From Physcia stellaris (Eukaryota; Ascomycota; Lecanoromycetes; Caliciales; Physciaceae): DNA of 64,000 bases. Location: assembly GCA_018902385.1 (NCBI GenBank), contig JABSSW010000016.1, positions 1 through 64,000 of the forward strand, read 5' to 3'. The position numbers and the translations under genes were made by a program. Positions 1,281-63,606 of the stretch are shown here, in pieces. The notes under the pieces were generated by a model, which saw nothing but the letters and a program-made list of their open reading frames with translations, was not told the DNA's origin and did not search any database. How positions within the stretch are numbered: position 1 is the stretch's first letter; every line of letters starts with the position of its first letter.

Positions 1281-3325
1281 TCAAAATTGTACCTGGGTCG
1301 ATTGGTGAGACTACATATGTAATTACTGATATATATCTGATGGAGTGATTCTAGATAGCTGGCCGAACTTTTTACGTTGTCGTAGGTGGACTAAAAGGCG
1401 AAAAATAATAAAAATCTGTTTCGTAATACATCAATTAAGAAAATTCTATTGCAAAAAAAAATCGCGTTAATACATAAATTCGATTTTAAAAATCGTTATA
1501 ATTTGAAAATATTATTACGTCGATTGAATTTTTCAAAATACGATCAAAATTCAACAAATAAACGTGATAATTTACAAAAAAACGATTTAAATCAATTGTT
1601 TAAAAATAAAACAAAATATTTCAATTCGTAATTTTTGAAAATTTGTTTTTGTTTAAAATCAAAACAAACATTTTTTCAATAACGTGTTCGTAGAAATATC
1701 AAATGAAATAAAAACAATAAATATTAACAATTACGTGTCAAAAAATAAAAACAACGATCGTGAAAATTTATTTGATTTAAATTAATAATCGATATGTAAA
1801 ATTTTTTTTTTAATAATTTTCGTTGTTTGTTTCGTTTTTTCGAATTTGATTTTTAAATTATAAATACAATTTTTATTTCATTTGATATTTCACAAATTTT
1901 CAAAAATCGTTTAAATTTACAAAATTTTGATTTTTCATTTATATTTCACAAATCAATTTTTGAATTTTGTTTGAATTTAAATTTGCAAATTTAAATTTTC
2001 ATTTAATATTTCATATTTAATTTTCAAAATTGCGTAAATTTACAAAATTTTGATTTGTTTATGTTTTATTAAATTAATTTTTAAATCAATAAAATGACAT
2101 TTGTAAAACATTCGTAAATCAATATTCGTAGAAACAATCGAACGTCATCAATATTTTTTGAAATAAATAAATTAACGTTTAACGATTCGATTCAATATTT
2201 TTAATTATATCGACGAATCAAACATTTTTCAAACACAAAACACGCGACATAAATGTTGAAAATTTGATACAGAAATGTTCAAATTTTATTTATGATTTGT
2301 TTACGAAATAAAACGTTTTATAATCGATTTTATCGATTGATAAAAAAATTGACACAATTCGTTTTAAATTAAAAAACGATTGTTCAACGTTAATATAAAA
2401 AAACAACGATTTTTCGTTTGAAAAACGAAAATTTCGAACAAAATAAATTAAAAACAATTTTGAAATTTCGACAACGTGGAAACAAATGATACGTTCGCAC
2501 GTATTTACAAAAATTTTTGAATTTTTAATAATGTCGCAAAAACGTATTCGAATGTCGATTGAATACGTTCCTCAATAATAAAAAAACGCAATAATAAATC
2601 AAATAAATATTTTTAAAAATTCAAAAACGAAAAATTCAAATCGCTTCAATTTCAAAATTTAATATAAATTTTAAATAAAAATTACGACAATGCAACATTT
2701 TTACGACAATTTTTTTGTTAATTGAATTTGATACAGACAAATTACGAATTAAAATATAAATTTAACGATTTTTTTTACAAATCGCGAAACATTGTTCAAT
2801 ATTTTTAACGTTTTTTCGAAATTTTTTACGTTTTATCGAACGTTTCGTTTCGATCGTTTAACGAATCGACAATTTTCAATATTTTTTTCGTTTACAAATC
2901 GCATTTATTAACGTTTTATCGTATATTAAATTTCGATCGATCAACGAATCAACAATTTCAATATTTTTTTCGTTTACATATTTCATATTTCGACGTTTTT
3001 TCGAACATTTCGATTTCATCGATCGAAAAATAAACAATTTCGCGCGAATTTTATTTTTTGAATTTTCGTATTTTCGACTCTTCGTGTTTTCGTATTTTTA
3101 CGATTTTCGTGTTTTTTTTTCAATTTTCGTATTTTTCACGATTTTTCGTGTTTTCGTGTTTTCCGCGACTTTTCGTGTTTTCGTGCTTTTCGTGACTTTT
3201 CGTATTTGTGTTTTTACGATTTTTCGTGTTTTTGTGTTTTTCGCGATTTTAATATTTTCAGCACAAATATCAATAACGAAAAATTGACAGATATCGAAAA
3301 AATTCGATGAGCATTATAAAAACGT
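1281..3325. other. AT-rich stretch without recognisable gene
   Basis: Nothing coding is recognised. About 1281-1400 is noticeably less mutated (it keeps CC, GG and AG) and may be the 3' end of the element at the left edge. From about 1400 the sequence is very AT-rich with almost no CpC or CpT. A loosely repeated block of about 120 bp occurs at about 1870-2060, seen as two similar stretches each ending in 'tttacaaaattttgatt'. It is probably decayed repeat sequence. Confidence 0.5.
3060..3250. repeat. Degenerate T-rich minisatellite (ttttcgtg-type units)
   Basis: The stretch is built from imperfect units of roughly 25-30 bases containing 'tttttcgtgttttcgt'. It produces a spurious Phe/Val-rich open frame on the plus strand. 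It lies just outside the left LTR of the G1 Gypsy element. Confidence 0.6.
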
Positions 3326-3626
3326 AAAACGTCAAATATATAATGTAATAAAAATAATATGTTCTAAAATTAATACCATTGCAAAATTAACTATTTTTCA
3401 CGAAATTTGTTATATACACGTTTTGTTAAATGCAACGTATACATCATTGTCGCATATACGCAAATATCGATACGTTAATCGTTGTTACGTTGATTTTATT
3501 AATATGACGAAATTGTTTGTTTCATTGTATAATCGATTTGATGTTTCGAATTTGTTTGATTTGAAATTTCGACAATCGAGATTCGATTCGTGCTTTTTGC
3601 AAATTTTGAATTTTGAATTTTTTACA
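3326..3626 (-). repeat. G1 left LTR (3' LTR of the minus-strand element)
   Basis: It matches 23418-23714 across its length. Shared blocks include 'tatacacgttttgttaaatg' and the 'cgatacgttaatcgtt' core, and both end in 'tttttaca'. The start is less certain because the first bases have diverged. Confidence 0.7.
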
Positions 3627-4745
3627 CGCGTTTTCTTTTAAACATCGAAATTTCATAAAATAATTAAATTAAATGTTTGAAACATGTTTGACGTATTCGT
3701 ATCGATTTGAAAAAACATTATAATCGTGATTTTCGCATTTGAAAATTTTGAAATTTGAAAAATCATTGTGATCGTGATTTTCGCATTCGAAATTTTTCTT
3801 TTCGATTTTTATTCAATTTGCATTAAAAATTTGAAAAAACATTTTCTTGAACGATTCAAAAAAAACATGATTTGATGAATTCGTTTGTTTGTTGCTTTCA
3901 ATATCGAAAATTTGATTTCGTACAATTTACAATTTTCGATATGATGATTAACAACTAATTGAATAACAATGAGTTTTGAATTCGAATTCTTTTATCATTT
4001 TTATTCTTTTTATTTCGTATATTGAAATCGATGAATTGATTGAAAAAAATTAATTAAACGAAAAACGTCATAATCGCGATCGCATTGAATATATCAAATT
4101 TCGAAAAATTTTCGATTTTTTACATTTCATTTTATTTTCGCATTCACGATATTGACGTTCAATTAAATCGACAACAATTTTGAAAATATTTTTGACACGA
4201 TTCGATTTTTATGCGTCGTAAATTTTGACAATAAACAACACAAAATCATTGATTTGAATGAAAATTTGTTTTTTAATCGATGTTTCATCAAAAAAATTGC
4301 ATTTATTTGACGTCGAATGCGTCGTCGATTTGACAATTTGTTAACGTAGTTTTTTTTTGAATTTTTTATGTGAAATTTTCGTATCAAATTTTTCAAATGT
4401 TTGATGGGTCGATATTGATTTTCAAATGCGTTTTTATAATTTTTTCAACGAATAAAATAGTAAAATTTGATTCGTTGTACGATCTTTTCGAAATTTGATT
4501 TTTTTGAAAATTTTATTATTTTCAATCGTTTTAACGTTATATATTTTTTTTGTGATTTCATTTTTTTCAATATCAATGTTTTCAAACTGATATGTTGATT
4601 TTAACGAAATTTTTTTCTTTTTTAGTTTTAATTTTTCGAAAAACGAAACATGAAAAACATTGTGAATTCGTCATCGTTTGAATATTTCTATACGATAAAT
4701 TTGATTTTTTATAATTTCGAATATTTTGAATGATTCAAAAAATTT

Positions 4746-5314
4746 TCATTTCGAATTTTTATTTCGTTTGATGCGAATATTTTTGACATTGAAATTTACG
4801 AAACTTTTTACTTTGAAATTCTTTTTCGTCAAAGTTTTTGCATTTTTGTATTTAATTTGCAATTTTTGAACATGAATTAAATTGATTTTGAATACGTTTA
4901 GCAATTTTGTCAAATATTTGACATGATCATTGACAAATTTCGATTTAATTTTGAAATTGACAAAATTTTCGAATGACATTTTTGAAATGTATTTTTGCAT
5001 AATTTCGAATGAAAACATTTGAATTGATGCATGTTTATTGTTGTTGTAAACGAATTTCGTCATGAACAATAATTTTATTTAATTGTTTTGTTCGAAATTG
5101 ATAAACGTTTTGAAATATTGTTTCATAATGTTGTTTTGTCGTTTTGTTTGATCATCGATTTGCGAATAATATGTGTAAACAATTTGAATTTGATTTTGAA
5201 TACGTAACACAACGAATCGTGATATTTGAACGTGAAAATAAAATTTCGATCAATCGTTATTGACGACGAAAAATCATGAAATTTTATTATTTCGCGTATC
5301 AGAATTTCAATCAA
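4746..5314 (-). pseudogene. G1 Gypsy integrase core relic
   Basis: Two minus-strand frames (5314-5123 and 5069-4746) give the integrase catalytic-core end. The block F-V-Y-N-N-N-K-H-A-S corresponds to the Gypsy 'EFAYNNSVHSST' signature, and the upstream frame holds the 'KFHDF.SSI..DR...F' region. The same two pieces occur in G2 at 26463-25852, with similar wording, so this is a repeat family. Pro, Gly and Trp positions of the family are replaced, as expected for loss of CC and GG codons. The downstream minus frame at 4396-4163 is probably the C-terminal tail but is not identifiable. Confidence 0.8.
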
Positions 5315-5739
5315 ATTTTTGCGATTATCGTTTTCGTGACGAAAATGTAATGTGTTATTTTCGTTAATTTATTTATACGACGAATATTGAATCGTTGTGT
5401 GATTTCGTTTATGTTTTATTTTTCAAATAATTTTGTCACGAAATTTCTTGTTAAATTCATTGAAATTTTTGAATTATTCGATATAACAAAAAACATTTCA
5501 TAACAAGACAATTTTTCGTATTGATTTGACGATCAATCTCTATATATGTTTTTTTTTTCATTCAATTTGCAATTTTTATTCTAATAACGCTCGTGTTTTC
5601 AATTATTTTTTGATTGAATTTTTCTTTTCGCATGTCACGATTTTGAAACAATTCGAAACGTTGTTTTTATTTCGTTTTGAATTTCAATAACATAATTTTT
5701 TTTATTTTAATTTCAAGATCGAGTTCGCTTTTTCGAAAA

Positions 5740-6395
5740 TTTTGAAAATTGTTCGAACGCTTGTTCGAATTCAACATTTGACAAAATTAACGTTCAATTT
5801 CGTTATTTTATTGACATCGAATATTCAGAACGAAATTCATGATTATTATAATCAAATTTTCTACATATGTTTTGCAAATTTGATTGAGTATTTGTTTCAT
5901 CTCGTGTAATTATGTAAATACAAAATAAATTTCGCGATTTTATCATGATGTTTTGAAATTCAATTTGAATTGAAAACGACAACGCATCGATCGTTTGTTA
6001 AACGTGATTTTTGTTGCAAAAATTTTTGATCAAAAATGTTAACGAATAGAAACATAATATTATTCAATTTGATTTTGAAAATGTTTCAACGAGAATAACG
6101 AAGATAAATCTCGAGTTTGAATTGATAAAAAAAAACAAAAGAAATCGTTATATTGAATCTTAATATTCGTCGAGAATCGAGTCGTTGCGATGTCTGATTC
6201 AATCAACAAACTTAATTCGACGTAAATTCTGTTGAAACTTTGTGATTTGAAAAACGATAAATTAATTTTTTATTGTGTAAAAACATGATTTGTGTATATA
6301 AACATTTATTCACGTAATTTCGTTTGTTATTTCATAAACAAACATTTAAAATTCAATTCAATTTGAATTTTCGATATTGAAAAAAATTTTCAAAA
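5740..6395 (+). mobile_element. Z-family fragment (one LTR plus start of internal region)
   Basis: Compared with G2, the G1 integrase region carries extra sequence between about 5540 and 6395. Bases from 5750 match the Z LTR: the 'cgaattcaacatttgacaaa' block sits 27 bases or so from the LTR start, followed by 'ctacatatgtttt' and 'tcgtgtaattatgtaa'. Bases from about 6043 resemble the first internal bases of Z-A (6843 onward, 'acataat..attcaat.tgattttgaa'). It is therefore a truncated Z insertion or a remnant of a larger one. Precise ends were not found. Confidence 0.55.
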
Positions 6396-8029
6396 ATATA
6401 ATTTGTGACGAAAATTTTTTTTTTTTTTTTGCAAATGACGTATGTTTCGCAATATTTTTGATTTGTCACGTATGTTGAAATTATGTTTGATGTTTTTTTC
6501 GATTATTCGTTTTTAATTCGAAATCAATAATATTTTCGACGTATCAATTTTTAAAATGCGTTTTATATCGAAATTTTCGATTAAAAAATTGTTTGATTTG
6601 TATTTAAATTCAAATCAGAATTTGACAAAATTAATAAATTTTATCGCTCAAAATCGTTAATTCGATAAATTTTTCGAAACAAAATTTTTCAACATATGTT
6701 TTGTCAAATTTTCGACAAATTTTCAATTCATTTCGATATTTTCGTATAATTATGTAATAATACTATATTTTTGCATAATCTGAAATTTTCATTATAAAAA
6801 ACATTCACGTCATGTTCGTTATAAAATACGAAACATTAAATAAACAAAACTTTTTGTCAAATTCAATAAACGAATAAAAACATAATAAATTCAATCTGAT
6901 TTTGAATGAATTCAACGAAAACTCGAAACATAATAAACTCGTTGTGAATTAAAAAAAACGAAACATAATAAATTCGTTTGCTTTGTTTTAAAAAATTTAA
7001 AAAGATTTTCTAACGCGAAAATTTCGATTTACAAACAACAACAATTTTTTTATCATTTTGACAAGCATTCGTTTTTGAAATTCAGAAAATCATCAAATCA
7101 AATTTAAATCATTCAAGAAAACATCGCACAAAAAATATTCGAACAAAATCGAATCAGAAATTTCGTTATTCGCATCAAAAATCTTGACATTACATTCAAA
7201 AATACATTCGATCGAATTTGAAAAAATAAATCTTTGAACGAGTTGAAATCGTTTATTTTTCGAAAAATATCGAAATTCTATTTATTTTCTTAACAAAATG
7301 AAGTCGTTTTCGATTTTAATTCGAAAGTTTCAATATCGAATCAAGATCAAATTTTCAATATTCTATTTGAAAATCATTCGATTTGATAATATAATCATTT
7401 TTTGTTCATAAATGATTTGAAAACGTGTTTGTTGAATTTCTAATGAAACGATTTTTTTTTTTTTTCAATGATAGCGTTAATATTCGAATCAAGAAATCAA
7501 TCAATTTTTCGACAAAATTTTCAATATTGACAATTTCAAATCAATATCTGAATCATTTTTGATTTTTGAAAGTTTTCAAAAATTCATCTGTCGATTTTGC
7601 AAATCAATCTAATTTTTTCGTATCGATGATAAAATTGTTACATTTTGAAATTCAAATTTCGAATCAATTTTTCAGATTTTTCATATTTTCGTTCAATACT
7701 TCGATAAGAAATCAATATTGAAATTATTCGTTTTCATCGAGATCATTTGCGAAATCATATTTGTTTCACTAAAAAAAATTTGTTTTTTTTTTCGTTTCGA
7801 CGTTAAATTCAATATCGTTTTATCAATAACGACAAAAAAAATTTTAGCGAATTTTTACATCAACATTCGACATTGAATTCATTCATTGTGTTTGAAAATT
7901 AATTTGAATTTGCATTCGTTTCATTGATAAAATAAATTCATATTTTTCGTTTTTGCGATGATTTCAATGTTCGATGAATTTGAAATTTTCAATTCGACAT
8001 TTTTTTACAATTGATTTGAAGATGAACTG

Positions 8030-13782: not shown

Positions 13783-13787
13783 GTCGC

Positions 13788-26871: not shown

Positions 26872-27399
26872 TCAAAGCGAATGTGATTTTTCAAAAATAA
26901 TTAATTTTTGTTTCATTTGAATCGCACAAATTTTTTTTTTTAGCAATGAACGAATCAACTCGACAAAATTGTCAATGATTTTATCGTCGTATGTTGCATC
27001 ATGTTTATGAATATGTTTTCGCGCAATCATTTCGTCGATCGATTCGAAAATCGTTGCATTATTCAATATTAATGTTTTTCATTCGTTGATAATCACGTTT
27101 GATATATTTGAAACGTCAAAAAAATCATTCGAAAAATTGTTTTTTTCATTTTTTTCAAAAAATTCGCACGCGAAATTTTCATTTTCGTTGAGTTTGAACA
27201 TCGTTGTTTTGATTTCGCTCACATAAATTGAAAATTCGTTTAAATTCGTTTGTAAAAATTGTCGCAAACGCGTCAAAATTTGACGATTGTTTTCAATTTT
27301 ATTTTCGATAATCGTCATGTGATCAAATCGTTTTGACAAATCGTTCGCAAAATTTTTATTGTCGAGACGATAATCGATGACAAAATTGTAACGTGACAA
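26872..27399 (-). pseudogene. G2 RNase H end and linker to integrase
   Basis: The frame 27399-27079 begins with Y-N-F-V-I-D-Y-R-L-D-N-K-N-F-A-N-D-L-S-K-R-F-D-H, the classical Gypsy RNase H C-terminal signature in which Pro, Gly and Ala positions have changed to Leu, Asp and Asn. The frame 27066-26872 is the linker region, matched by G1 13937-13788. It is interrupted on its upstream side by Z-C at 27411. Confidence 0.85.
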
Positions 27400-27410
27400 T
27401 TTTTGTGTTC

Positions 27411-27596
27411 TGTGACGAGCGTACTATGTGTTGGGACCCTGGTAGGTGTTTGAATTTTATTTTATCACACCGGGATCCGGGCCCGGATTTGAATGACCAA
27501 ACCACAAAAACATATGGCCTGCCAGGTCCCCATATTTCGCGAATTCTGCAGTCTAGAATCCTGTTGTTAACCCATATCATTGCATGGCACCTTACA
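27411..27596 (+). repeat. Unmutated Z LTR
   Basis: It starts tgtgacgagcg like the Z-B LTRs and shares 'tttattttatcaca', 'acatatg' and the 'tcattgcatggcaccttaca' end. It lacks the 30-bp internal tandem duplication seen in Z-B, hence 186 rather than 236 bp. Confidence 0.8.
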
Positions 27597-28318
27597 TTAT
27601 TCTAGACGTTTACAAACACCCGGGGCATGTTTTTATATGTTTTAACCATAGCCTGTAGCAGGCAGTTGGACCGAGCACTGCGAAATGTTGCAGCAGAGCT
27701 TTTCGACCAGGTTCTAGTTTCTAGACCACCACCAACGAATCTCGATTCCTCGTTCCTACACGCCTTTCAGACCATTACACCTACCTCACCGCTCGTTTGT
27801 GATACGCGAGATTAAAGAAGCATTCACAAAAAAGCCGGTTCCGAAAACCCCAAACCAGACCTCAGAACCGTCACGATAACTCAGCATTTCGAACCACCTA
27901 CCTGTTTTGTATAATTTCAGATTCCTGCCTATTTACCTAGCAAATCAGCATTTTTTGTCCCCTGAAACGATCTCGGTGATAGCTTATTTTAAAAGTCACA
28001 ACTTTTTCGAGTCAAAAAAATCAGTACTTTTAAACGATACATCATTCATTTTATTGGAGAACAATTTCGAAATCCTTACCAAATTTCCTAGCAAATCGGC
28101 CGTATAAATCAACCTTCGCGATACCGACGATGCATTGTCCAGAAGCCCAGAAGCGAGCAAAATAACGAGGTCAAAACGAAAGCCGAATTCCTGAAGGCCA
28201 AGCAACGATTGAACGACCTGCGAGAACGACGAGCTCAAAGAGACAGCTATCGAAGCTGCAAGACCTATACCAACACCCCGTGATATCGGTATATTCGATC
28301 CAACACTCATATGTGATA

Positions 28319-29116
28319 TCCAGGAGTTCAATCTATATAGTCAAGTAACAGGCTTTCTGCAACACCTTGAGCACCAGCAAAGTCAACATCAATATCGGAA
28401 GTCAGATGTGCTCGACCTATTGCCCAAATGCCTTCGAGGCCCTGCGTTCGCCTGGTTCAAAACTCAGTCAGATTTTTCACGAATATTTTGCGAGGATTTA
28501 CGGAATTCAAAGGCCTAAAATGTGCGTTTCCTACTACTTCGCTCGAACCTATCGCAAAAATTTTTATTTTCGCATACCTCACATCCTCCGCCTCAATATC
28601 ACTTTTCGTTGAATTTTCCGTTTCTTTTTTCTCGTTTCCATGACACATTTTCTAGAACATACCAAACAAGCCAGTTGTTCGAAAGTGGCCTGCAAGCATT
28701 GCGAGCAGGGCTTCAACTCAAGAAAAAGCTTCAAAAAGCATATCCGCGAGCAACATACTCAGAAATCGGATACCAACTCAAAAATCTCCGAAACCAGAAT
28801 CCACGTACAAAACAAGGAGAAAAAGCAGTCGTTTGATCCGCCTATTCCAAAATATCCGTCTGCAAACGTTGCAAAACGATCTGCAACACCTACATCGATT
28901 TCTGAACCAGTATCACGTCAGCAAAAAAGTTCGAAAATTTTGCCAAATTTCGAAATCGAAATTACACCAAACAATCGGAGATTTTCATCTTTTTGCATAG
29001 CGATCGACGAGGTTTTCACCAAAGCGCGCCGAAATTTTACGTTATCGAAATTAATAATCGAATCTTGCTCCACCATTTTTTTCGAAAACTTTTTCAGAAT
29101 TTTTATCATGGCCTGA
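28319..29116 (+). pseudogene. Z-C Gag-like/C2H2 protein, partly intact
   Basis: One frame (28319-28519) reads F-L-Q-H-L-E-H-Q-Q...Y-R-K-S-D-V-L-D-L-L-P-K-C-L-R-G-P-A-F-A-W-F-K, a Gag/capsid-like segment with the Pro, Gly and Trp that Z-A and Z-B have lost. It stops at 28517-28519. A second frame (28640-29116) carries a C2H2-type finger C-K-H-C-E-Q-G-F-N-S...H-I-R-E-Q-H near 28690-28755, then Ser/Lys-rich sequence. The two frames are separated by a stop and about 120 bases, so this copy is not intact either. I infer a structural role from position after the LTR and domain type; no database match was possible. Confidence 0.6.
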
Positions 29117-29740
29117 AAATCGATATCTTGAGCGAAAATTGTTTCACCGAAGTCGTTTCGAAATTTTCTCGTTTTTCGACACATAGAACCGACATTCAGA
29201 ATCGATGGAGAAACTACCAAAAATCAAACGTTACACCTTTGGCTTCACGTCTGTTTCGTTTCGAACATTTACAAATCATCGAAACCTTATTTGACCATCG
29301 AACGATTTGATCGCATGTTCGTTGAAAAATCGAATTTATTTGATTTGGCCTCAAAACAAATCGTTGCACCGCAATTTTGACAAATGCAATTTTAAAAGCC
29401 CTGGCATCACGTCATATTTTCAACCGACGATTTTATCTGTTTTCAAATCGATCACAATCACATTTGAATACTTCATGTTTGCAGCCAATCGCGTCATATT
29501 TCGATTTAGTCAGGCGTTCGATTTCATTTATTTATTTTTCTCGATTTGTTTCGAAGCGTTTTCATTTCTCGACAGTTTTCGTTCGTTTTCTGCGCAAACA
29601 TCAAAAACGTTTCGTCATTTATCTGATTTATCGATTGAAATCATGTCAAATGTTTTCGCCAGAATTGAAAACCAGGCATTCAAAAGAATCGCTGCAGTTG
29701 AAGGTTTTTTTTTTCATTTTGTTTTGAGAAAATATTGATT

Positions 29741-31028
29741 CTTTTTCGAAAAAGTCATTACTTTGAAAAAATTAAAACATGTTGTTTGTTTGTTGTTTTG
29801 TTCGCTCGTTTTTTTTATTAATCGTTGAGATCTGAAAAAACATTTGTTGCATGTTTTGTTTTATTGTTTAACGAATATTAAAAACTTATTTTTGCAATGG
29901 ATTTCGTTTTGATTTAACACGACTAATCTCGTTTTTTTTTTACTATTTTGAGACTTAGCCGGCTCGATAAATACGAGAAAAAAAAATAACAATACAGTTC
30001 GAAAAACGTATTGGGAGTTGTTAAAAAAGAAAAAACGAATCAAATAATATCGTTTGAAAAAACGTTTTTGGCAATCATTATCTTATTCGACAATACAGTT
30101 TCGAAAAAGCGTATTGCCCGGATACAACTATGACCAAATCACATAATATCGTTTCGAAAAAGCGTATTCTGCAATCATATTAATATTCGATTTTAACCCA
30201 TAAATTGATCAAAAAAACAAATAATGTTGAAAATATTTGATTTTTCGCATAAATCGATTTGATTTTTTGACAAAATAATCAAAATCGAAAATTCGAATTT
30301 GCACTCTTTAATCGAATTTTTTTTTCGATTTTTCGATTTTTCAAATAATATCGTCAATTTTTTACAATCAAACTATAATCAAAAAATATTCGATCGTGAA
30401 TTTCAAAAATATTTGAAAATTTTTGAAACATAAATTATCATGATGTGATTCGCATTTTCGTTCATCATCGCAAAATTCAAACAATTAATATTTTTTTTTA
30501 TTTTTTTATTTTAAATATCGAATTTTCACATCGATGTTTTATTTCGAATGAAAAATTCAAAACGTAAAAATTTTCAAACGTTTTGCGTAATCGCACGTTT
30601 TACAATTCGATTTTACGTCATATTGAAATCAATAAAATTTCGATTCGTTCGTTTTTGCAATTTTCGCATCGATTTCTATTTCGATTTCGCGTTGAAAAAT
30701 TTGTTCGAAAATTTCAAACAACGCATTTTTGAAAAAAAATCGTCAAAAATTTTAGATATCAGAATTTACATCGTTTTGAAAAATCGTTTATAGAAAACTT
30801 CAAACTGAATTCGAAAAATACAGAAAAAAAACAAAACGATTTTTGAAAAAATGTTGAAAATACAATTTCGCAAATATATTTCGCAAATTTTGCAATTAAA
30901 ATTCATTGATATAAATCGATAAAAATTTAAAATTTAAAAACTCGATTTTTTTTTGAAAAATTTACAATTTTTCAAGAATAACGAAATTCAAAACAATAAT
31001 TTGTAATCATTAAACGATTTTTTCAATA
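29741..31028. other. Unidentified AT-rich insert in G2
   Basis: No domain is recognised. A short motif recurs at about 30040-30180: 'aatatcgtttcgaaaaagcg' with variants, three to four times. Homology with the G1 RT region resumes at about 31029 ('catttgacgttttc'). Confidence 0.45.
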
Positions 31029-32887
31029 CATTTGACGTTTTCGACGTGTTATGTATCGTTTTTAAAATAGATAATTATATCGTTCAAATAGACAATGATC
31101 GACAAATCTAATCGTTCGATCAAAATTTTGTTAACGAAACTTTGAAACGTTGCAAATACATTAATGAAATCGAAAAACATAACGATATATTCAAAATGTT
31201 CGTATCATGTTTTGAACGTTGTTTTTCATTCGTTTTTTTAATACGAAATCGATTGTAAATCGTTATCATGTCAAAATTTGTATATTTGCGAATTTTGTTT
31301 AAACGATTCAGATTTTATCGATTAATAATAGAAAATATTTATTTTTGATCGTTAAAAAATTAAAATTTTGTAATTTACGCACAATCGTAAAGTTTCGTTT
31401 TTTTTTAACGAACAAAATCGAAACGTTTGCAAAAAAAATGAAAAATCGAATAAATTCGTTTTTAAATGTTTATTCAAATATGTTCGCAAAATTTTAAATT
31501 CGTTTTCGAACAATGCGTAAATAAATTCATACGATAATTTTTTTTTGATTTTAAATTTATTGCGTGATCGTCGAATTCATAATCAAATAATTCGTATATT
31601 TTGTTTTCATTTGTCATGTCAGCGAATTTTTCAAGATTTCAAATAAAAAATTTTTGATATTTTTTTTTTCATTTTCGCGAAAACAAAGTCGATTTGCGAT
31701 CGTCGTTCAATGTGTACGTCATTCAAATATTTTATTTCGTCAGAAATCATTTGTACGAACATGACGAAAACGTGTTTTTTTTCATTGAAAATTGCGTTGA
31801 TTAGTTTTTTTGATTCGATTTTTTCGATACGATTCGTGATGAAAAGAAATGATTTTACAATCGATGATCACGATTCGATTTTGTCGATGTTTTAATTTAT
31901 ATCGATTTCAAATAATTGTATTCAAAATAAATTTAAAATCATGTTTCAATTTAGATTCGTTTTTAAAAAATTATCGTTAAAAAAACGATTCACGTCGTTT
32001 TCATTTCTGTATTTCGAATTGTACAAATAGACTTCATAAATTCTTGAATGAATTGTTTTTATGATTATTGTTTCGCAATTCGATACGTTGAACGATTTTA
32101 ATTCGAATCGTTTAACAAATTTCTGATTTATTAAATTGATTTTTGTTTTTGAATTCATAACGATTTCGAATTTCAATTTATTTTTTTCGTCAAATGTTTT
32201 ATTTATTTTGATTTTTGTTTTTTTGCATTTGATCGTGCGAAATTTTTTAAAACGACGTTTTGCGTTTTTGATTTCGACAATGAACGTATTGAATTCGTTC
32301 GAATTTGAATCGATGCGATCATTTGTTATTGAATTTTTTTTCGTATCAATTTGATTGAAAATTATCAAATCGATTATTTTTTTGATTTAAAATTTGAAAA
32401 AATTTTCTCGAAAAAAACGATATTCGATTTGATATTTTTACATTTTTTAATATTGCATTTCGATTTATCGCAATCGATGCATTTATCGTTATTCACGATA
32501 TTTTTGTATTCGATTTTGATTCAACGTCATATTTTTTGAATTTGATTGTTTCGCGATTAAAATTGTCAAATTTGAATTTTTATCGTTTTTTCGATTTTTT
32601 CGTCGATTTTTGTTAAATCGACGATTGTTTTTTTCGTTTTCATCGAAATTATTTTCATTTTTTTTGCGTTTGTTAAAGTCGTTATTAATTTTATTTTGAT
32701 TGACATTGCGTTGTTTTTTGCGTTGAAAATTTTCTGATTGTTTGAAACGTTTCAGAATCACGTTTTTATCGTTTTCAATTTCTTGTTCGATTAGAAAGTT
32801 TTGATTATTTTGAATTAAATTCAATACGAAATTCTGTAATTTTATTGTTGATGAAAATTTCATAATTGAATATAAATTCGAAAACAA
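31029..32887 (-). pseudogene. G2 Gag, protease and RT N-terminal relic
   Basis: From the right on the minus strand: an Asn/Lys/Arg-rich Gag segment (32887-32489), then near 32490-32440 a Cys cluster C-I-D-C-D-K-S-K-C-N-I-K-K-C resembling a zinc knuckle. Next is the protease segment (32368-31946) with M-N-S-K-T-K-I-N-L-I-N, the altered D-S-G turn, and then the RT N-terminal region to 31029, which matches G1 15007-15800 base by base in many stretches. No open frame is long enough to be functional. Confidence 0.75.
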
Positions 32888-33523
32888 AACGATGCGATAT
32901 GCATCGTAATTTCTTATTGATTGATTGATTTTTGTTTGTAATTTTTATATTTTTCGAAATTATTCTTCTTTTTGATGAAAATTTTTTTGAAATTTTTTTG
33001 AAAAAATCGACATATTTTTTTCAAATATAGTTCTTTTTTGAATTGTTTTTGATTTTGACATTTCAAAATAACTGTGCAATTAATTTTTTCTTTAGAAAAA
33101 TAACAACAAAAAAGAATTTGATGTTGTCAAAATTCTTGACGTAATCGTTCATTTGATTCATGTCAAATTGATTTTTTATTTTTCAAACGTATTGAGTTCA
33201 TTTTTTATAATTGTTTTCAAAAAATAATTTTGATTTATCGTTCATTATCTTGATATAAAACGATTTTTTTTTTTAATGACAGAAATTTGAACGACTGAAA
33301 ATGTAAATGTAAATGTATTTTGTAATGTTTTCATTCGAACATGTTGTTGTTAAATGTATGTTCGATATTTTTCATGATGATATTTGATTTTGATAAATTC
33401 AAAATAAATTTATTTTCAAAATTCGTGAAAATATTCATATTAATGAAAAGTGTAAACATGCTGTATACACGAATGATGTTAATTTATGAATTATGATAAT
33501 TATTAGAATGTAAAACTCAAAAA

Positions 33524-33816
33524 TATGACATCAAAAATGTATAACAGAAACGATTGTATGATTAGATTAATAATTGCAAAACTAATTATTTTTCAAATTT
33601 TTGTTTATATAGTCAGTCAATTTGTTCAATCGTACACATATTTCGAAATTTATTCGAAAGTATGAATTTGTTGAATTCAATCGAAAATTTGATGTTGACG
33701 TGATCAAACTGATCGTTTTCGTGATTTATCGAATTTCGATGATCGAATTGTTTGATATAATTTTATCGAAATTCGATTCGCAATGTTTTGTTGATTTGAA
33801 TTTTGAATGTTTTACA
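33524..33816 (-). repeat. G2 right LTR
   Basis: It is the partner of 24446-24738 and has the same 293-bp length. Confidence 0.85.
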
Positions 33817-34640
33817 AAATCGTTATCGTCGAATTTCGATTGAATGTTTCATTAAAATTAAATATTGCACAGCAAATGAATGTTACATAATAATTAAACG
33901 AACGTCATCGAATGATGATGTTATCAATTGTTACAACGAATGTTGAACTGCTTGTGATAAATAAATAATTGTTTGATTTTTTATTTGAATGTGTGCAAAA
34001 AAGATATTTACATGTTCGTTTTGCGACGACGTTAATTCTATTGAAATTGTCACGTAACATTTTTTGAAACAGTTTTTAACATAAATGAACGAAACGAATG
34101 ATCGAATACATGATAAATTCGATCAATACAAATGCATATATCGTTTGAAATCATTATCAATCACAAAAATTTCGATCATCGAAATCGACGTGTATTTATT
34201 CAAAAATTGATTGAAAAATTTTTACGAAATTCAAATATCATTAATCAATCGTCAAAATGTATCAAATCGACGTATTGTAAATAAAATGATTGTTCGATCA
34301 ATTTTCACACGAAATTTCGAAAACGTCAAACATTTATTTTCAAAAATGTCAACATATAACATCGTTCGAATCGTAAAACGTTTGATTATTGTATAACATG
34401 TAAAATGAATTTATGCGTGTCATTTGAATGTTTCAAAATTTATCATGATTCGAAAAAAATGTCATACGAATGTTTTGATCAATAGTGAATTTGAATACGT
34501 TTCGAAACATTTGAAAAAATATCGATGATTTCAAATGAATTTCGAATGTAATCATATTTCAATTATTGAATGTTTATATATTATCGAATTTTTTCACTGA
34601 ATTATACACATATACACGTAAATTTGGTGAAGTAATGGTG
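33817..34640. other. AT-rich edge of the left repeat block
   Basis: This is AT-rich sequence with almost no CpC or CpT and no recognised gene. Composition changes abruptly at about 34620-34640, where GG and AG reappear. Confidence 0.6.
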
Positions 34641-34878
34641 GTTGAAGTGGGGGAGGAAGGATCGCGTGAAAACACGCTAAATTTCACTAATTGGATGCGG
34701 AGGGGATGGGAATCACTCGCAATTCATTGTCATTGGGGTGAAGGTTCTTAATGAAGTTCAGGAAGACCTTCCGGTTTATGCCAGACCAACACCTTCCTGA
34801 CCAGCACTGAAGTCGGCTATTAGCGGAGGCGACATCAGCTCTGCAGTCCCTCCCTAACACTCACAATCGTGCCCCAGG

Positions 34879-36069
34879 ATGTCCGGCTATGCTTTCGAAC
34901 ATCCAGACCGGAGGAGGATGATAGACCGGTCTACAATCGTCGAAATTAGTGGAGGGCGCCCACCACCAGTACCATATGAAAAGCCGGAAAGCCCAAGTCG
35001 GCGCGTCGAGTCGCGAAGTGATAGAAGCGGAAGAAGGGACTCGCGATCTAGGAATGGCAATGGCAGGCATAGAGAATACGGGTCGCCTTTGGCAGGAGGC
35101 ACGAGAAACCGGTCAAGAAGCCCATACCAAACAGGTCATAGATCTGACAGCAGAGATCGAGCTAGAAGCCGGTCGCCCAAGAGGCTGCGGCGGAGATCAC
35201 CTTCCTCTTCTCCAAGTCCCAGAAGGCGTGATTCTTCAGGCGAAGAGAAGCGCATACGGAGGAGATCCAGGTCAGCTCTATCTCCTCGCAGTCATCGAGA
35301 TCATCACTACGATTCCTCTAGACGAAGACGCGAAGCGCTAAAATCTACACACTCCTCATCCCCAGACTCCTACAAACGCTCCAAGCGACGTCACAGCAGA
35401 TCACCTCCACCACAAAACCATCGACATAGGTCGCGAGACAGAGTACATCATTCCAAGCATCGCGCCAAACGAGCTCCTTCTCTCTCCCCTGCTCCACCCA
35501 TGCGCTCTAAAGCACCTCTACCCTCTCAGCAAGATGCTTTCGGTGGTAATACCGCCGTAATCAAACCCGACGACCCTCCACCTGTCGAGAAACAGAAGCC
35601 TAATTATGCTCCCACCGGCGCCCTAGCGCGGGAGACGAACACGGTCTCGGGCACCTCTACAGTGTTGAAATACAACGAGCCACCGGAAGCGCGGCTTCCT
35701 CCTGCGTCGGCAGCGTGGCGAATGTATGTCTTCAAAGGCGAGCAAGAGCTGGAGAAATTGGATCTACATACACGGAGCTGCTGGCTGTTTGGCCGCGAGC
35801 GAGCGGTGGTGGATGTTCCGATTGAGCATCCTAGCTGTAGCAAGCAGCATGCGGTCATCCAATTCCGATTCACGGAGAAGAAAGGCGAATTTGGAGACCG
35901 GAAGGGAGGGGTGAAACCATACATCATTGACCTGGACTCGGCCAACGGCACGATGCTGAACGGTGAGAAAGTGGAGGGCAGGCGATACATGGAGCTTAGG
36001 AGTGGAGATGTGTTGAAGTTTGGGGAGAGTACACGAGATTACGTGCTGCTACTTCCACCCAAGCTGTGA
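34879..36069 (+). CDS. FHA-domain protein, SNIP1/Pml1-like splicing factor
   Basis: This is a single-exon gene of 396 aa. Residues about 40-200 are Arg/Ser-rich with many RS and SP dipeptides, typical of splicing-associated proteins. Residues about 278-396 form an FHA phosphopeptide-binding domain with the signature positions G305-R306, S321-x-x-H324 and N356-G-T followed by N361. This order (basic RS tail, C-terminal FHA ending at the protein end) is that of SNIP1 and the yeast RES-complex subunit Pml1, which act in the nucleus in pre-mRNA retention and splicing. The assignment to that family is from known architecture; the splicing role is inferred. The ATG follows a GC-balanced leader with 'ccaggatg', and an AATAAA lies at about 36273. 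It is the first gene inside the GC-balanced island, about 240 bp from the AT-rich block, and shows no mutation signature. Confidence 0.9.
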   Translation: MSGYAFEHPDRRRMIDRSTIVEISGGRPPPVPYEKPESPSRRVESRSDRSGRRDSRSRNGNGRHREYGSPLAGGTRNRSRSPYQTGHRSDSRDRARSRSPKRLRRRSPSSSPSPRRRDSSGEEKRIRRRSRSALSPRSHRDHHYDSSRRRREALKSTHSSSPDSYKRSKRRHSRSPPPQNHRHRSRDRVHHSKHRAKRAPSLSPAPPMRSKAPLPSQQDAFGGNTAVIKPDDPPPVEKQKPNYAPTGALARETNTVSGTSTVLKYNEPPEARLPPASAAWRMYVFKGEQELEKLDLHTRSCWLFGRERAVVDVPIEHPSCSKQHAVIQFRFTEKKGEFGDRKGGVKPYIIDLDSANGTMLNGEKVEGRRYMELRSGDVLKFGESTRDYVLLLPPKL

Positions 36070-52646: not shown

Positions 52647-53401
52647 GTTGCTAAAAGTCCAAGTGTGCAGATGCTGCTGGCTGGAAGCTGTGTGGCAGAC
52701 TCCTAATGTAAGTATTGTTATAGAGGTAGCTTGAGCGAGTTTGCTCATGTCTTTGATTGGAATTGGTGGAAAAGTTAGAGCATTCCATGACTGGATTCTT
52801 CCATGCAGGTAAACATTCTGAGATTTGCTACCATCCACTTTCCTTTGTGTATGTGAATCTTCTGGGTACCGACAGTTGAACTCCAAGACGCTACACTCTC
52901 ATTATCTTAAGATACGTCCAAGAATCAGGTACAATATTTAATATTGCCTTTGTAAGATTATTCACTGACACCGCCCCAGTGGGATGACGAGTCTTTGTTA
53001 CGGATACTGGGGCAGTGAGCGTGCTACGTCGTCAAAGTAAGCTAAGACAACAGAATTGGTGGTTAGCAGAGAAAGTGGACAGGAAAGCGCGACGCAACAC
53101 GGGGCAATTCATGAATCGGCTGAGCTACTATCCTCTCCAAAATGGTTTCGGGGAAAGAGCCTTTGACGAAATTTTCCAAAGTCTCAGCCGACGGCAGGAA
53201 CGAACGTGCCTCCGACCAGTATGTCAGATCAAAGAACAAGCAAAGTGCAGGAAGAGACTGGGAAATTCAAGAATCATTATTGTAAGCAGGGCATATGGAT
53301 TAAGAGAAGACAAAAAGAGAAGCAGACTCACTCATTTTTGAAGCAAGATAGATTGATTGGACTAGAGGCATCCAGCAGCACATCTCAAGTCCTTCGGCAC
53401 C
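52647..53401. promoter_or_regulatory. Shared upstream region of the divergent Cys-rich pair
   Basis: It is a 755-bp region between the proposed starts of two head-to-head paralogues. It probably holds both promoters. Short plus-strand frames inside it (53015-53341) are not supported as genes. No specific binding site is claimed. Confidence 0.4.
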
Positions 53402-55722: not shown

Positions 55723-57127
<1,405 letters not shown>

Positions 57128-57738
57128 ATTCCAGAAACAACGTTAATGTCTTTCGAGACACCTAACGAAAAAGAATGGGACACCTCAATGGGCCGAGGCG
57201 ACAGCGATATAAGAAAATGGAGATAGGGAATTTGACAGAGATGACGGAGGGCCCGACCCTTTGTACCTTAGTTGAGTAGAAAGGCTGACTGCGAGATTTG
57301 AGAAGAAAGGAAGAAAAGCTGAATGGAGAGATGGAGAGATGGAGAGTGTTTATTCGCTGTCAGTAATTGAGGACCCGACCCATCGTACCTTAATTTGGGT
57401 TGAAAAGCCGATTGCGAGTTTTGTGAAAAAGCAAAAAAAAGTTGAAGGGAGAGATGGAGGGTGTTTATTCGCTATCAGTAATCGACTTGAAGCACGAAAC
57501 TTTGTCATGCTTACGTGCATGGGAACGCTCAGCATATGAGAGTAATCGAGGCGATGACCAAGCTTGACGCAATAAGTCCTCTCGAAGGTTCAGAGTTAAG
57601 AGGGTCTCAAGGAAGTGGTTTTTAAGTGAAAGCAATACAAGAGATGTTGCAGTATACGATTCACGGGTTGGTGCTGTTATACGGAGGTGTATTAAGCCGA
57701 GTCACGTGATACGTTTAGCCCTACATAAACAGGTTTTC
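57128..57738. promoter_or_regulatory. Upstream region of the terpene synthase
   Basis: It is the 611-bp stretch between the terpene synthase start and the LINE target-site duplication. It is GC-balanced and not mutated. It contains a 122-bp tandem duplication (57247-57485). Confidence 0.5.
57247..57485. repeat. 122-bp tandem duplication upstream of the terpene synthase
   Basis: Unit 1 starts 'gagggcccgaccc' at 57247 and unit 2 'gaggacccgaccc' at 57369. Both contain 'gtacctta', 'gagagatgga' and 'gtgtttattcgct.tcagtaat'. The copies differ at perhaps a fifth of positions. Confidence 0.8.
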
Positions 57739-57749
57739 TGTACATAGAA
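57739..57749. repeat. Left target-site duplication of the LINE
   Basis: tgtacatagaa here is repeated exactly at 63627-63637, directly after the LINE tail. Confidence 0.9.
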
Positions 57750-58708
57750 CCGGAGAAACACAATTTATGTTACAAATCCAATTTTTGAAATAACTCAACA
57801 ACGAAACGTGATATTGATCTGATTAACGCGTCATTCGAATCGCCGAATTTTTGCGCATCGATCAGTGAGCAATTGATGATGATGAGAAAAATAACATGAT
57901 CGTTGTTAAATCAAACGAACGAAAACGTTCACGAGCAAAAAACAATGTTGCTGAAAAACATCAAAAAATGTCGAGAATTCGTTCGAGCAAAAGAAAAATC
58001 ATCATCAAAAATCATTGAGAGTTGATTTACAATCGTCGTGACATATTTTGAAAACACGCAATTTGCATTCATTCAAAAAAACATGATGAACGCAATGAAC
58101 AAAATGATTGTTCAATTCAACAAAAAGCACGCGAAAATGAAAAAAAACAATGTCATGATTCGTCATGAAATTACAGAAATAATCATTTTTTTCAAATTTT
58201 TTTTTTTTTTCACGATCAAAACGAATTCACGCAATTGAACAGTCGTCGTTGCGATTTTTTCAACGTTCAAAATCATCGCAAACAAAAACATCGAAATCAT
58301 AATACGTTTAAACGACAACGAGAAAAAGCAACAATTGAATCAATACGAAATCAAACGTATCGTCAATGAAATCAACACGTGCATTACGAAAAAAAACATA
58401 CAAATCAAAAATATTCGAGCGATCAAAAAATTTTCGAATGATGATTTCGCGATACACGCGATAAACGCAAAAAAAGCAAAAAAATTGCGAAACAACAATG
58501 CATGAACGACGATACTCGATAGAAAAACGAAAACGATCGTTTCGATTTACGCGATCATGATCAACGAAATAGAAATCAAGAAATTCGACTTAACAACGAC
58601 AAAAGATAGAGAAACGACGATGCGTAAAATCAGAAAAAAAAACGAAAACGTGAAAAAATTAAAAAAATGAAAATTTTGTACGTGTTTTGAAGAAACAAGT
58701 TCACGACA

Positions 58709-59030
58709 ATGCAACAATATCATTTTCTGATTATTGAAATCACTATTTCAAAAATGAATAACAGTATGTTGAACAACAGCATCATGATCGAAAAAAAATT
58801 GAAAATTTGTTCAATGTTCAACAAAACATGCAAAACTATTCAATGTTATAAATGTCATCATCACGAACACAATACAATTCAATGCACAAAAAAAAAACGA
58901 TACGATTATTGCGCAAAAGCGCATGTTACAAAAAAAAAAAAAAAATGTGCAAAAAATTACAAAATCAAATGTTGTGTATGTGAAAAAGCACATAATTCAT
59001 GAAGAAAAAATGCAAAAAAAAAAAAAAAAT
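58709..59030 (+). pseudogene. LINE ORF1 zinc-knuckle region, broken
   Basis: The open part (58709-59002) carries a CCHC knuckle C-Y-K-C-x4-H-x4-C, a second cluster Y-C-A-K-A-H...C and the start of a third, C-C-V-C-E-K-A-H-N-S. The third is ended by TGA at 59000-59002, at the position where Trp is usual in this type of Gag-like protein. Upstream parts of ORF1 (58038-58238 and neighbours) are too decayed to describe. The segment has no Gly, Pro or Trp. Confidence 0.75.
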
Positions 59031-59539
59031 CGAAAAATCATGTATTAACGCTCGATTACGTCAACGAGATTCGAAATTCAAAGACAGCAATACATCGTCG
59101 TCAACAAAATGATAACGATTTCGAAATCGATGAATACAATTCACGAAAATTCAAAAACGACAATCGCTGCGAAAAAATTCAATCAATTAAAAAAATACAA
59201 CGACGAAACATCGAAAAGTCACAAAAAAAAAAAATTTATTTAAACGAAATCAACAAACGCAAAAAGACGAACGCGCATGAATTTCACGTGAAAATGATTT
59301 TGTCGATCGAAACAATGATGTCATCGCAATTGTTTTCAAATTCACAAAAATTTCGAAACAGAAAAAACGATAAATCGACGTCATCGATCAAAAATAAAAA
59401 AACATCAATGATCAAAAAAAAATATGAGAAATTTGAAAAAAAAAAAGTTTTTCGTTCACGATCATCAAAACATTTTTATTTGACGTCACGAATCGAAATA
59501 CGAAATTCAAAATAATGAAAAAATGTTAAAAAACGACAC

Positions 59540-62500
59540 ATTATTTATATTACAATACAACGTCAACAATTCGAGAATTCAGATCATGATATCGCTGTTC
59601 GAAACAAAAAACATAAAAAAATTCGATATATTGATCATGCAAAAATCGTGAAAAAATTCATTTCAATTCACGACAAACAACAGATTTTCGCAACAATTCG
59701 AATTATTATACATGTTTGATGCAATCACGAGAATGTGCATGTTCGTCAACAAAAAAATAACGAAAATCGTGTATTTTCACACGTTTCACAACAGAAATTT
59801 GATTTCATTAAAAATGCAAATCGTGAACGACAAAATTATCAACATTCACAACATGTATAATTCATGCAAGAGCAGCGAGAATCTCAACGCGATATTCAAT
59901 TTCAAAAATGCAATGCAAGAGAAAATTAACGAAAAATACGTCGTTGTAAAAGATTTTAATTTGCATCATTTCAATTGAAAAAAATCACATGTGAAAGCAA
60001 ACGCGAACGCATACGAATTCATAATCACGATGAAAAAATATAAATTGAAAAAAATCACATCAATCGAATTAATTACATGAAATAGACACACGAGCGAGAG
60101 CACAATCGATTTCACATACGCAACATCGTTGTTTCGAGACAGCATGATCGAAATCGACATCGACGAAAACATGAACAATCACTCGAATCATCGCTCAATT
60201 AAAACGATATTCAATTTGCGAACGAAAGCGATCGAGTCGAAAATCACAAAAATTTGAACGAAAACAAATATCGATATATTACGCGAGAAATTGCAAACGA
60301 AAATCACGAATAATGAAACGTTCATTTTCAACAACGACACGTACAACAATCAAACAAAAAAAATCGACGATCAAGTTAAAAAATTGATAAAAATCATTCA
60401 AACAATCATCGAAACAATCATTTCGATCAGCAAATCGAATGTTTACGCGAAATCAAAATTCATCGAAAAATGCAAACAAACATCGAGAACGATCAAATCG
60501 ATCAAAAAAAAATATCAAAACAACGACAAAATCGAGAATCTGTGAAAATCGTACAAGAAAGTGAGAAATCGTTTGAGTCACGTAATTTCTAAAATCATGA
60601 AAACACAATACAAAAAAAAAATCGAAGAAAAATGTGATACATCAAACAACATGTGAAAAACATGCAAATGAACAAAAAATCGTATTTCAAAAAAAATTTG
60701 TCTGTCGATTTTACACGATCATTCATTCATGTTGTTCGAAATTGATTCAATCAAAAAAGCATTCATATTGCTGAAAAAATTTTTTTTTTCGTCGTTTACG
60801 ATTGTTTTAATCGACATACAAAAAGTCACATACAATCAGAATTTGAAGTTGAAAAACATACAATTTCACGAAATGACGAAAGTCATAATCAAACAAAACT
60901 CGAACAAAATTTCAAACGACGACGACATAATCAATAAAATATGAAAATGAATAAATGACATAATCGCATCACATTTGCAACGTATATACAACGTCAATTT
61001 GAACGAGAGTTATTATTCGAAACATTTTCGAAAATCGATCACGATCGCATTACGTAAATCAAATAAGAATATTTATTCAATGACGATCTCGTACAAATCA
61101 ATAATTTTACTCAATATTATAAGCAAACTCATGAAATTCATATTGATCAAACGAATCAACTTTTTGACGAAAAACACGATTTGTTGTCACGCACACATTT
61201 CGAAGTCAAAAAATTCGTGTTTACGAAACACGCATTACATTACATGATGAAACGAATACATTCGACATGAAACAAAAAATTGATAATCGTGATCATGTTT
61301 TTCGACGTGATGAGCGTTTTCGACAATATAGCGCGTTTAAAATTGTTACACAATTTCAGAATGAAACGTTTAGACGAAAAATTGATACGATATATTGATT
61401 TTTTTGTTCAATAAAATGACGATATTGAAAACGAGCGAATACGATATCGAATGATTTGAAATATTCATAGAAATTTCACAAAACTCATTTATGTCATCGA
61501 TTTTTTTTCTTTTACAACGCATTTCTATTGAAAACTTTGAAAAAAAAAATATTTCAGCGAACGAATTCGTCGACGATGTAAAAATGCTGACGAAAAATCA
61601 CATTTTCGAAAAATGTAACGATATCATAATCAAAACACACGAAAAAGTTTGCGTATCGTGAACATTGAAACATGAAATGAAATTTGCATTTTTCAAATAT
61701 CAATTCATTTATTTCAATCGAAAAAAAAAACAAACGTCATCGAATCGATATTATTTTTTGAATTCAATCAAAAAATCAAAACAAACAAAAAAATGAAATA
61801 TTTGAACGTCATAATGAACGAAAAACTCAATTGAAAAACACAAATCAATCAAAACAAAACGAAAACATTGAAATTTATAAAAGCATTACGCAATCTCGAC
61901 GACATTACATGAAATATTAAATTTTCGAAAATGAAACAAATGATGCAAACGATTTTCATTTCACAATTCACATACGCATGTTCGATGTGATACACGTCGA
62001 CAAAAAAAAAAAATCACAACAAAAAAATAACGAAAAAATTAGCGAGCGTTCAATATCAAATCGAAAAAATCATAACGAAAACATACAAAACGATTTCGAA
62101 AAAAACGTTCAATATCGAAATCAATTCAATGTTCATGCATTTACGTTTAAACAAATTCATCAATGCGTTCGCAATGAAATTGATAACAAACTCAACATAC
62201 GACACGATTATACGCGATCGTTTTATCAAAAAATCGAAAAACGTCAATTCATTGAAAAAGTTAATGAATAAATTCGAAAAAAGACGAACATCAAAGCACA
62301 CGATATAAAAAAAAATTCTATTTTTTGTCGCATCGTCATGATGAACATCGTCAATTGCACGTATCATGAAAAACAAAAAGAAAGCAAAAAAATATCACAA
62401 AATACAATTAGCAACGAATTCGATCAATTACATATACACAAATAAAAGCGACATTAACGACAAAATGAATGCAACAGCGATATTTTCAAAAACGAAATTT

Positions 62501-63360
62501 ATTACAACGAGAGCGTATTTGAAATTCATTACGTCATACACGATTTATTTTGTTGAATTATATGACATCGTTTTAGCATTGAATATGCGATTGCATTCGT
62601 TTTTGAAATTTGCAAAAAAATCGAAATTCGTCATATCATCGACAATCAGACAGCAATTCAAGCGATATACAATTCGAAAATCAATTTCGATCAATATTTG
62701 ATGAAATGAATAGTTTGATTGATCAACGAATTGCGAAGCAAATATATTGAAATAAAATTGCATTGAATTTCGATTCACATCGATATCGTGAACAACGAGC
62801 AAACAGACGTTGCGATCAAACAAATCACGAAATGAAAATTGAAAAAACGAAATAGAAGAAAGAAAAAAATGAACATCGATCACAAAACACAACAAACGAA
62901 CGTGCAAATGCTGAAAAGCGTCGTCAAAATCGTGATGAATAAATCGATAAAATAACAATGAAATCAAGAATGAAAAAATTGCAACAAAAAAAAAAATTTG
63001 TACAAAATTACATCGAAATTCAATAAAACAATATTGCGATTACACGAAAAATTCACAAAAAAATTCAACGTCATAGCAATACAACTTCGCACGATCAAAA
63101 TAAATTTACGAACGTTTTTATACAACAAAAAACAAATCGAAAATTTCATGTGTTCATGCATATGTAACAAACAAACGATCAAGCACGTGCTTTTCGAATG
63201 CAAAAAACTGAAAAAATTTCGCAAAAATTTATGAATTGACGAAATTAAAAAAACGAAATGAAAAAAAATGAAATTGATGAACGTATTGATCAATTCGATC
63301 AATTTGACGAAAACGACAAAACTCATCGAAAAATTCGAATTTATTGACTATTTACGAGTT
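59540..63360 (+). pseudogene. LINE ORF2: endonuclease, RT, RNase H, C-terminal knuckle
   Basis: Endonuclease: 59712-60170 with M-C-M-F-V-N-K-K, I-N-I-H-N-M-Y-N and V-V-V-K-D-F-N-L-H-H, the last ending in TGA where Trp is expected; the S-T-I-D-F segment near 60100 and N-H-S-N-H-R at 60178-60195 follow. RT: N-K-I-S-N-D-D-D near 60910, I-I-L-L-N-I-I-S-K-L near 61105, M-F-F-D-V near 61295 and F-V-D-D at 61566-61577. RNase H: D-N-Q-T-A-I-Q-A-I near 62640 and L-H-(stop)-I-S-I-H near 62760, then N-N-E-Q-T-D. C-terminal knuckle: C-S-C-I-C-N...H-V-L-F-E-C near 63150-63200. Order and spacing are those of Tad/I-group LINEs. Many TGA codons interrupt it. Confidence 0.85.
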
Positions 63361-63606
63361 TCAGTAACGAACGACGAGAAATAGAGATTGCAAAAAAGTC
63401 GCATTGAATTAGAAATTTTCGTACAAAATGAAAATGAAAAAAAATCATGAAAATAAAGATGTTTGAAGTGGTTTGTTCGAATAGAAAAACAAAACATCAA
63501 GAACAAATAATTTTGTATAGAGTCAAGAACTTTCTAGAAGGTGATTGACTCGATTGTTTTTAGTCGCATAACGGATTCTTAAGGTCGATTTCGAGTGCTT
63601 AATAAA

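Follow-up and report, generated by a model that had tools for sequence, protein, structure and literature searches.

What process strips the repeats of a fungal genome of cytosines that precede a pyrimidine, and leaves those that precede A or G nearly untouched? The question is raised by a 64,000-nt stretch of contig JABSSW010000016.1 (the window) from the lichen fungus Physcia stellaris (Caliciales, Lecanoromycetes), in which AT-rich, repeat-derived blocks lie on both sides of an island of genes. An earlier note on this DNA had proposed C-to-T mutation resembling repeat-induced point mutation (RIP), with CpC/CpT specificity, over the whole of 1,400–63,500. The C-to-T process is real and strong; it is limited to repeats, and its 3′ context is the opposite of RIP's. 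It has marked the AT-rich blocks; within the span proposed, 27,411–30,328 is only partly mutated and the island at 34,709–57,755 is unaffected. Very probably, a RIP-like, repeat-recognising C-to-T defence operates in P. stellaris or did so until recently, taking CpC ahead of CpT and both far ahead of CpA and CpG. RIP-like here means that C-to-T change, action on both strands and confinement to repeats are all observed; a preference for CpA is not.

The window is made up of the following parts (a strand is given where one applies).

1–27,410: mosaic of old repeats depleted in CpC and CpT, the first ~2 kb only partly (per-kb counts, repeat matches).
3,900–6,300, plus strand: repeat copy containing the example at 5,101–5,400; many matches elsewhere at 75–92% identity (best 40 of 695).
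27,411–30,328: younger insertion, mutated in part, lying inside an older repeat that is itself mutated (repeat matches, per-kb counts).
30,329–34,625: mutated block, with zero CC or GG between 30,198 and 34,626.
34,083–34,708, plus strand: end of a many-copy element, the stretch common to its copies; CpC is absent up to 34,625 and returns in the last ~80 bp.
34,709–57,755: gene island of normal composition, used as control (per-kb counts, composition).
57,756–63,469: mutated block containing the example at 58,021–58,260; a many-copy element begins at about 57,756 (counts, copies).

Recounting reproduced exactly the figures on which the proposal had rested. At 5,101–5,400 the base after C is G in 22 cases and A in 10, and never C or T (32 C in all); G itself follows T or C 48 times, A once and G never. 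The 38 C at 58,021–58,260 precede A (25) or G (13) and never a pyrimidine, and 12 of the 24 C at 35,341–35,400, in the island, precede one. Whole kilobases look the same: CC and GG are both missing from 19 of the 22 kilobase bins with starts from 5,001 to 26,001, and from all five bins from 58,001 to 63,000. To the right of the island CC/GG occurs at 57,778 and 57,843, and then not again up to 59,000. Among six stretches compared with the repeat at 3,900–6,300 (L072–L077) none was an unmutated copy.

We examined the depletion in 264 1-kb bins, 64 from the window and 200 from 20 other 10-kb stretches (one place per contig, on 20 of the larger contigs of a 43.97-Mb genome sequence in 147 contigs; the published assembly is given as 46.57 Mb in 184 scaffolds, PMC7513301). 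The AT blocks of the window (about 37.5 kb) hold 23 CC and 36 GG, with observed/expected ratios of 0.03 and 0.06; the ratios are 0.28 for CT, 0.35 for AG, 1.34 for CA, 3.18 for CG and 0.44 for TA, and the mutated blocks have a GC content of 26%. Mean CC+GG per kb falls from 119.8 in bins of GC ≥0.42 (n = 205) to 2.3 (range 0 to 31) in bins of GC <0.35 (n = 51; eight bins lie between). CA+TG differs little (135.6 versus 121.5 per kb), as does CG (54.4 versus 55.4), in agreement with the predicted loss of CpC and CpT with CpA and CpG near expectation. The earlier note had named depletion of single-copy intergenic DNA of the island as grounds for abandoning its proposal. DNA of normal GC is not depleted: none of the 205 bins, in which coding and intergenic DNA are pooled, has CC+GG below 60. 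Outside the window, CC+GG is at most 11 in 13 of the 200 bins, and 34 and 50 in two others. The loss affects parts of two of the twenty stretches (L018 and L021) and the rest are normal; from a sample of one place per contig, the share of the genome affected is only roughly known.

A simulated CpY mutator, given the gene island and four stretches of unmutated elements as starting sequence, reproduced the 16 observed dinucleotide frequencies with a distance of 0.018 (r = 0.998), at rates that we picked from the pair counts below (CpC 2.8 times CpT, CpA and CpG nearly spared) and against an observed set without the partly mutated stretches. Six other models (classic CpA RIP at two strengths, CpG decay, CpC only, any non-CpG C, and any C) ended at distances of 0.20–0.33.

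The direction of change was read from five pairs in four element families, each comparing a younger copy with an older one (written younger>older). Copies were found by reverse transcriptase domain searches, which set open-frame copies of normal composition against copies with in-frame stops. The share of sites changed is highest at CpC (L025>L034, 76/81; L026>L036, 48/51; L026>L038, 45/47; L033>L044, 47/48; L069>window 57,756–59,800, 162/173) and next at CpT (in the same order, 55/74, 51/77, 60/75, 50/57 and 179/224). It is low at CpA (5/91, 1/93, 9/92, 6/65 and 12/280) and at CpG (10/96, 0/78, 2/76, 3/58 and 13/264). Thus neither CpA, the preferred site of RIP, nor CpG, the site expected of CpG methylation and deamination, is the main target, and a predominance of CpA-to-TpA change, also named beforehand as contrary evidence, was not found. 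The claim of a CpY context sparing CpA and CpG is borne out by these pairs, with the correction that CpC is taken more readily than CpT. Fisher tests of CpY against CpR give 3e-51 for L026>L036 and 2e-160 for L069>window. C-to-T differences in the reverse direction number 10, 2, 6, 5 and 33 in the five pairs, and two of the younger references, L026 and L069, are themselves already partly mutated (68% and 71% of CpC remaining). A further comparison of a partly with a fully mutated copy (L027>L037) gives CpC 3/3, CpT 32/38, CpA 5/86 and CpG 1/74.

The pair L026>L036 bears most directly on slow decay, in which methylated CpC and CpT in silenced repeats would deaminate spontaneously, with no dedicated mutator. 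In 699 aligned bases 100 of its 102 differences are C-to-T, so that 94% of CpC has changed against two differences of any other kind, a ratio far beyond general expectation for deamination of 5-methylcytosine; CpG, moreover, is spared. Slow decay is accordingly improbable, despite the limitation of the pattern to repeats, the presence of a DIM-2-like gene in the genome, and DIM-2 methylation in Neurospora that is described as favoring CpT (PMC13297926).

When four pairs are pooled, 93–100% of CpC and 72–79% of CpT are changed regardless of the 5′ base, and C-to-T change is found on both strands alike. With APOBEC/AID-type enzymes it is the base on the 5′ side that decides which C is taken, and on cDNA one strand is hit more than the other. 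Such dense C-to-T change could come from a cytidine deaminase that attacks single-stranded DNA or retrotransposon cDNA, and eight PF00383 matches occur in the genome, but with no 5′ context and no difference between strands this source is very improbable. A PF08210 profile search of the genome found no match; its positive control was also silent, so this carries little weight.

Modified cytosines miscalled in poorly polished repeats would be another source of apparent change: the assembly combines Nanopore and Illumina reads at depths of about 31x and 30x, respectively (PMC7513301), and repeats are hard to polish. Several observations make an artefact of this kind scarcely credible. Tens of kilobases have lost nearly all such sites on both strands; the sister copies L036 and L038 differ from each other at CpT; of four polarised alignments, three have no gap column and the fourth has 16 in 2,053; and the change stops at repeat ends, continuing only into flanks that are themselves mutated.

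The order of loss can be followed in intermediate copies, where the fractions of CpC and CpT remaining are 0.12 and 0.57 (L027), 0.16 and 0.85 (L040), and 0.09 and 0.72 (L043). Across 54 stretches that keep 3% or less of their CpC, a mean of 21% of CpT is left (range 3–60%). A few intermediates keep less CpT than this trend, among them the window bin at 27,001, with 0.58 of its CpC and 0.48 of its CpT. This bin includes part of the nested insertion, whose younger age is indicated by flanking repeat matches that stop at 27,410, some of them restarting at 30,329. Strong strand asymmetry is also seen there, with CC at 50–54 and GG at 19–20 per kb over 27,001–29,000.

A mutator that spares CpA cannot turn CAA or CAG into TAA or TAG and converts TGG to TGA, so relics rich in TGA are predicted. 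In 287 matches to two reverse transcriptase families (best 150 of 527 and best 150 of 165), in-frame stops comprise 651 TGA, 134 TAA and 6 TAG, and 14 matches have no stop; related copies share stops, and these counts are therefore not of independent events. A smaller excess of TGA would arise from composition alone, since the AT blocks read in any frame contain 2,281 TGA, 1,774 TAA and 233 TAG.

Does the mutation follow the repeats themselves? The element that ends at about 34,708 has at least 40 matches elsewhere (best 40 of 112), and we compared 21 copies (20 and the window's own). The left flank is mutated in all 21, which leaves the right end as the one test of the boundary. There the flank has 55 to 150 CC+GG per kb in 19 of the 21. 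In 20-bp bins pooled over these 19 copies, CC+GG is 0–3 per kb from −400 to −100, then 18, 47, 116, 3 and 229 over the final 100 bp; beyond the end it lies between 79 and 134. We read the dip to 3 near −40 as the element's own last bases being poor in CC and GG. No spread into unique flanks appears in this pooled profile, where density is normal from the first 20 bp. In the other two copies (L052 and L057) the right flank is mutated, and the element is mutated to its very end. Together with the right edge of the island, the pooled profile indicates that mutation ends where the repeat ends, to within about 100 bp, in keeping with the claim that the process is repeat-directed. Repeat searches at both ends of the island found no other copies of its edges. 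In Neurospora the RID branch of RIP acts within repeats and the DIM-2 branch on single-copy DNA beside them (PMC12543289); by analogy, the boundary in P. stellaris appears closer to the former.

A different kind of junction is found at C30:448194–451353 (L050/L069), where a fully mutated element end adjoins a barely mutated element of another family.

Four observations weigh against a strictly CpY-specific, repeat-bounded process. There is minor change at CpA and CpG, for example CpG 10/96 in L025>L034 and CpA 9/92 in L026>L038. When both copies of a pair are old, CpA and CpG sites differ as well, by 5–35%, along with changes at A and T; we take these differences to be old subfamily divergence, poorly polarised, and set them aside as neither for nor against. 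L062 lacks CC and GG for ~100 bp past the assumed repeat end. Lastly, some repeats escape: CpY bias is absent from L028, L029 and L030 (96–98% identity over 2.8 kb) and from L031 and L032 (95% over 3 kb). These are unmutated reverse transcriptase stretches with long open frames, on C8, C42 and C7 and on C5 and C12, respectively. Their differences fall mostly at third codon positions (31/52, 59/90 and 120/141) and thus accumulated under constraint; the stretches are either recent arrivals or host genes that escape.

Compared with known systems, the process in P. stellaris shares with RIP of Neurospora crassa and other Pezizomycotina C-to-T change on both strands, restriction to repeats with single-copy DNA spared, AT-rich relics beside normal genes, and the presence of RID-family and DIM-2-like genes. 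It departs from RIP in its ranking of sites. The order is CpA>CpT>CpG>CpC in N. crassa, and CpC is likewise last in Trichoderma reesei (PMC5496416), whereas in P. stellaris CpC exceeds CpT and CpA and CpG are nearly spared. The classic indices reflect this. TpA/ApT (threshold ≥0.89) and (CpA+TpG)/(ApC+GpT) (threshold ≤1.03) are 0.46 and 1.39 in the AT blocks and 0.69 and 1.24 in the island, all on the negative side.

CpT is also targeted in Magnaporthe, Botrytis and Sclerotinia (PMC4352252) and in Anisogramma (PMC10998396), although always together with CpA; the signatures reported in PMC4352252 are CpA, CpT and CpG, and the word CpC is absent from the portion of that paper drawn on here. Repeat-linked C-to-T mutation away from CpA is known in basidiomycetes and Tuber, where it is aimed at CpG (PMC4352252, PMC4014442), the very site spared in P. 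stellaris. Elsewhere, CpC is also lost from Stagonospora repeats, with CpA dominant and TpA alone rising (PMC2621366), and Monilinia shows CpA mutation plus double changes from CpC to TpT (PMC8959702). CpA is reported for Mycosphaerella graminicola (PMC4522978) and for ribosomal DNA pseudogenes, in which CpT is higher in N. crassa (PMC5555474). In an alignment-based analysis, CpT to TpT is described as the dominant form in RIP-capable controls (PMC7882544). Among lichen fungi, Endocarpon pusillum has mutated repeats too but with classic indices of 1.47 and 0.70 (PMC3897900). Cladonia rangiformis resembles P. stellaris in its mutated repeats, sharp edges and RID and DIM-2 homologues; there the assessment used GC content, whose peak in repeats lies near 16% (PMC12542154). 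This is lower than the 26% found here and hints at another or wider context in Cladonia. In the open-licence literature searched, we met no description of mutation that takes CpC first and spares CpA. Within that literature the belief that such a context was undescribed stands for this order of sites, although CpT targeting beside CpA had been reported (PMC4352252). A word search of the text of the P. stellaris genome paper finds none of RIP, repeat-induced or transposable. A search for the signature outside this genome, in viral contigs and with a single piece of transposon protein, gave no relative.

Taken together, these data show that C is converted to T on both strands under a 3′-pyrimidine rule, CpC first and CpT second, with no clear influence of the 5′ base; that mutation is confined to repeats, fading over the last ~100 bp; and that part-mutated copies preserve the order of loss. 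Recognition of the repeats would probably be by homology. Activity may fall in the sexual cycle. The sequenced strain is described as grown from ascospores and the thallus as bearing abundant apothecia, and P. stellaris is thus sexual.

Which enzyme could be responsible? The search for RID and DIM-2 homologues that the earlier note had called for identified PF00145 matches at four places, two of them in one gene, and hence three methyltransferase loci: a DIM-2-like gene on C3 and two RID-family genes in separate clades, A (C6, L001) and B (C5, L003). The frame of B is 99% identical to an annotated P. stellaris protein. Both A and B keep SPPCQ, and the position that reads ENV in DIM-2-like proteins is EET or EQT in these two; we take EET/EQT to be a mark of the RID/Masc1 group. 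The A match contains two TGA, which lie in introns by our reading of the frame. In the RID-family tree (quick method, with long-branch warnings) A groups with Aspergillus and Talaromyces (SH-aLRT 83); the tree resolves two clades and does not name the mutator. Among 74 hits for A, from a search that finds only relatives sharing short words, the sole named lichen is Heterodermia (Physciaceae). For B and DIM-2, each with at least 120 matches, named Teloschistales and others are among the matches listed.

There is about an even chance that the mutator is one of the two RID-family paralogues and that its target preference has shifted. We consider it unlikely, though less so than the alternatives above, that the DIM-2-like or some other enzyme fills this role, which would leave the defence itself unchanged. 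The reading frame on C3 is open, and the CpT preference of DIM-2 methylation noted above would suit it. Against this, the DIM-2 branch in Neurospora hits single-copy DNA beside repeats (PMC12543289), whereas the flanks here are normal from the first 20 bp. If a RID-family enzyme is responsible, the target dinucleotide of RIP may have turned over fully in this lichen lineage, the enzyme, perhaps the clade-A paralogue, now taking CpC and CpT and refusing CpA and CpG; we hold this tentatively, at somewhat less than even odds.

A 2025 kingdom-wide screen describes RIP-like defences as sharing a preference for CpA (PMC12543289), and the preference in P. stellaris is the reverse. Since the classic indices score the AT blocks as negative, index-based surveys would miss a CpC/CpT form, and if the reading is correct they have overlooked lineages with such forms. 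A RID-family enzyme with a switched target would make the choice of RIP target an evolvable property of one enzyme. To our knowledge, the route by which RID takes C to T is unsolved. With enzymes of opposite 3′ preference to hand, recognition could be probed by exchanging domains between them in laboratory Neurospora. There is also a consequence for annotation: because CAA, CAG and CGA codons are spared and stops are mostly TGA, long open frames survive in the relics, which may pass for genes.

Two further observations were made in passing. The best PF00383 match (G000:C64:178666–179121) contains four in-frame TGA; either these are intronic or the mutator has reached a gene. L009:8888–9424, where composition is normal, has an inverted self-match of ~550 bp at 73% identity.

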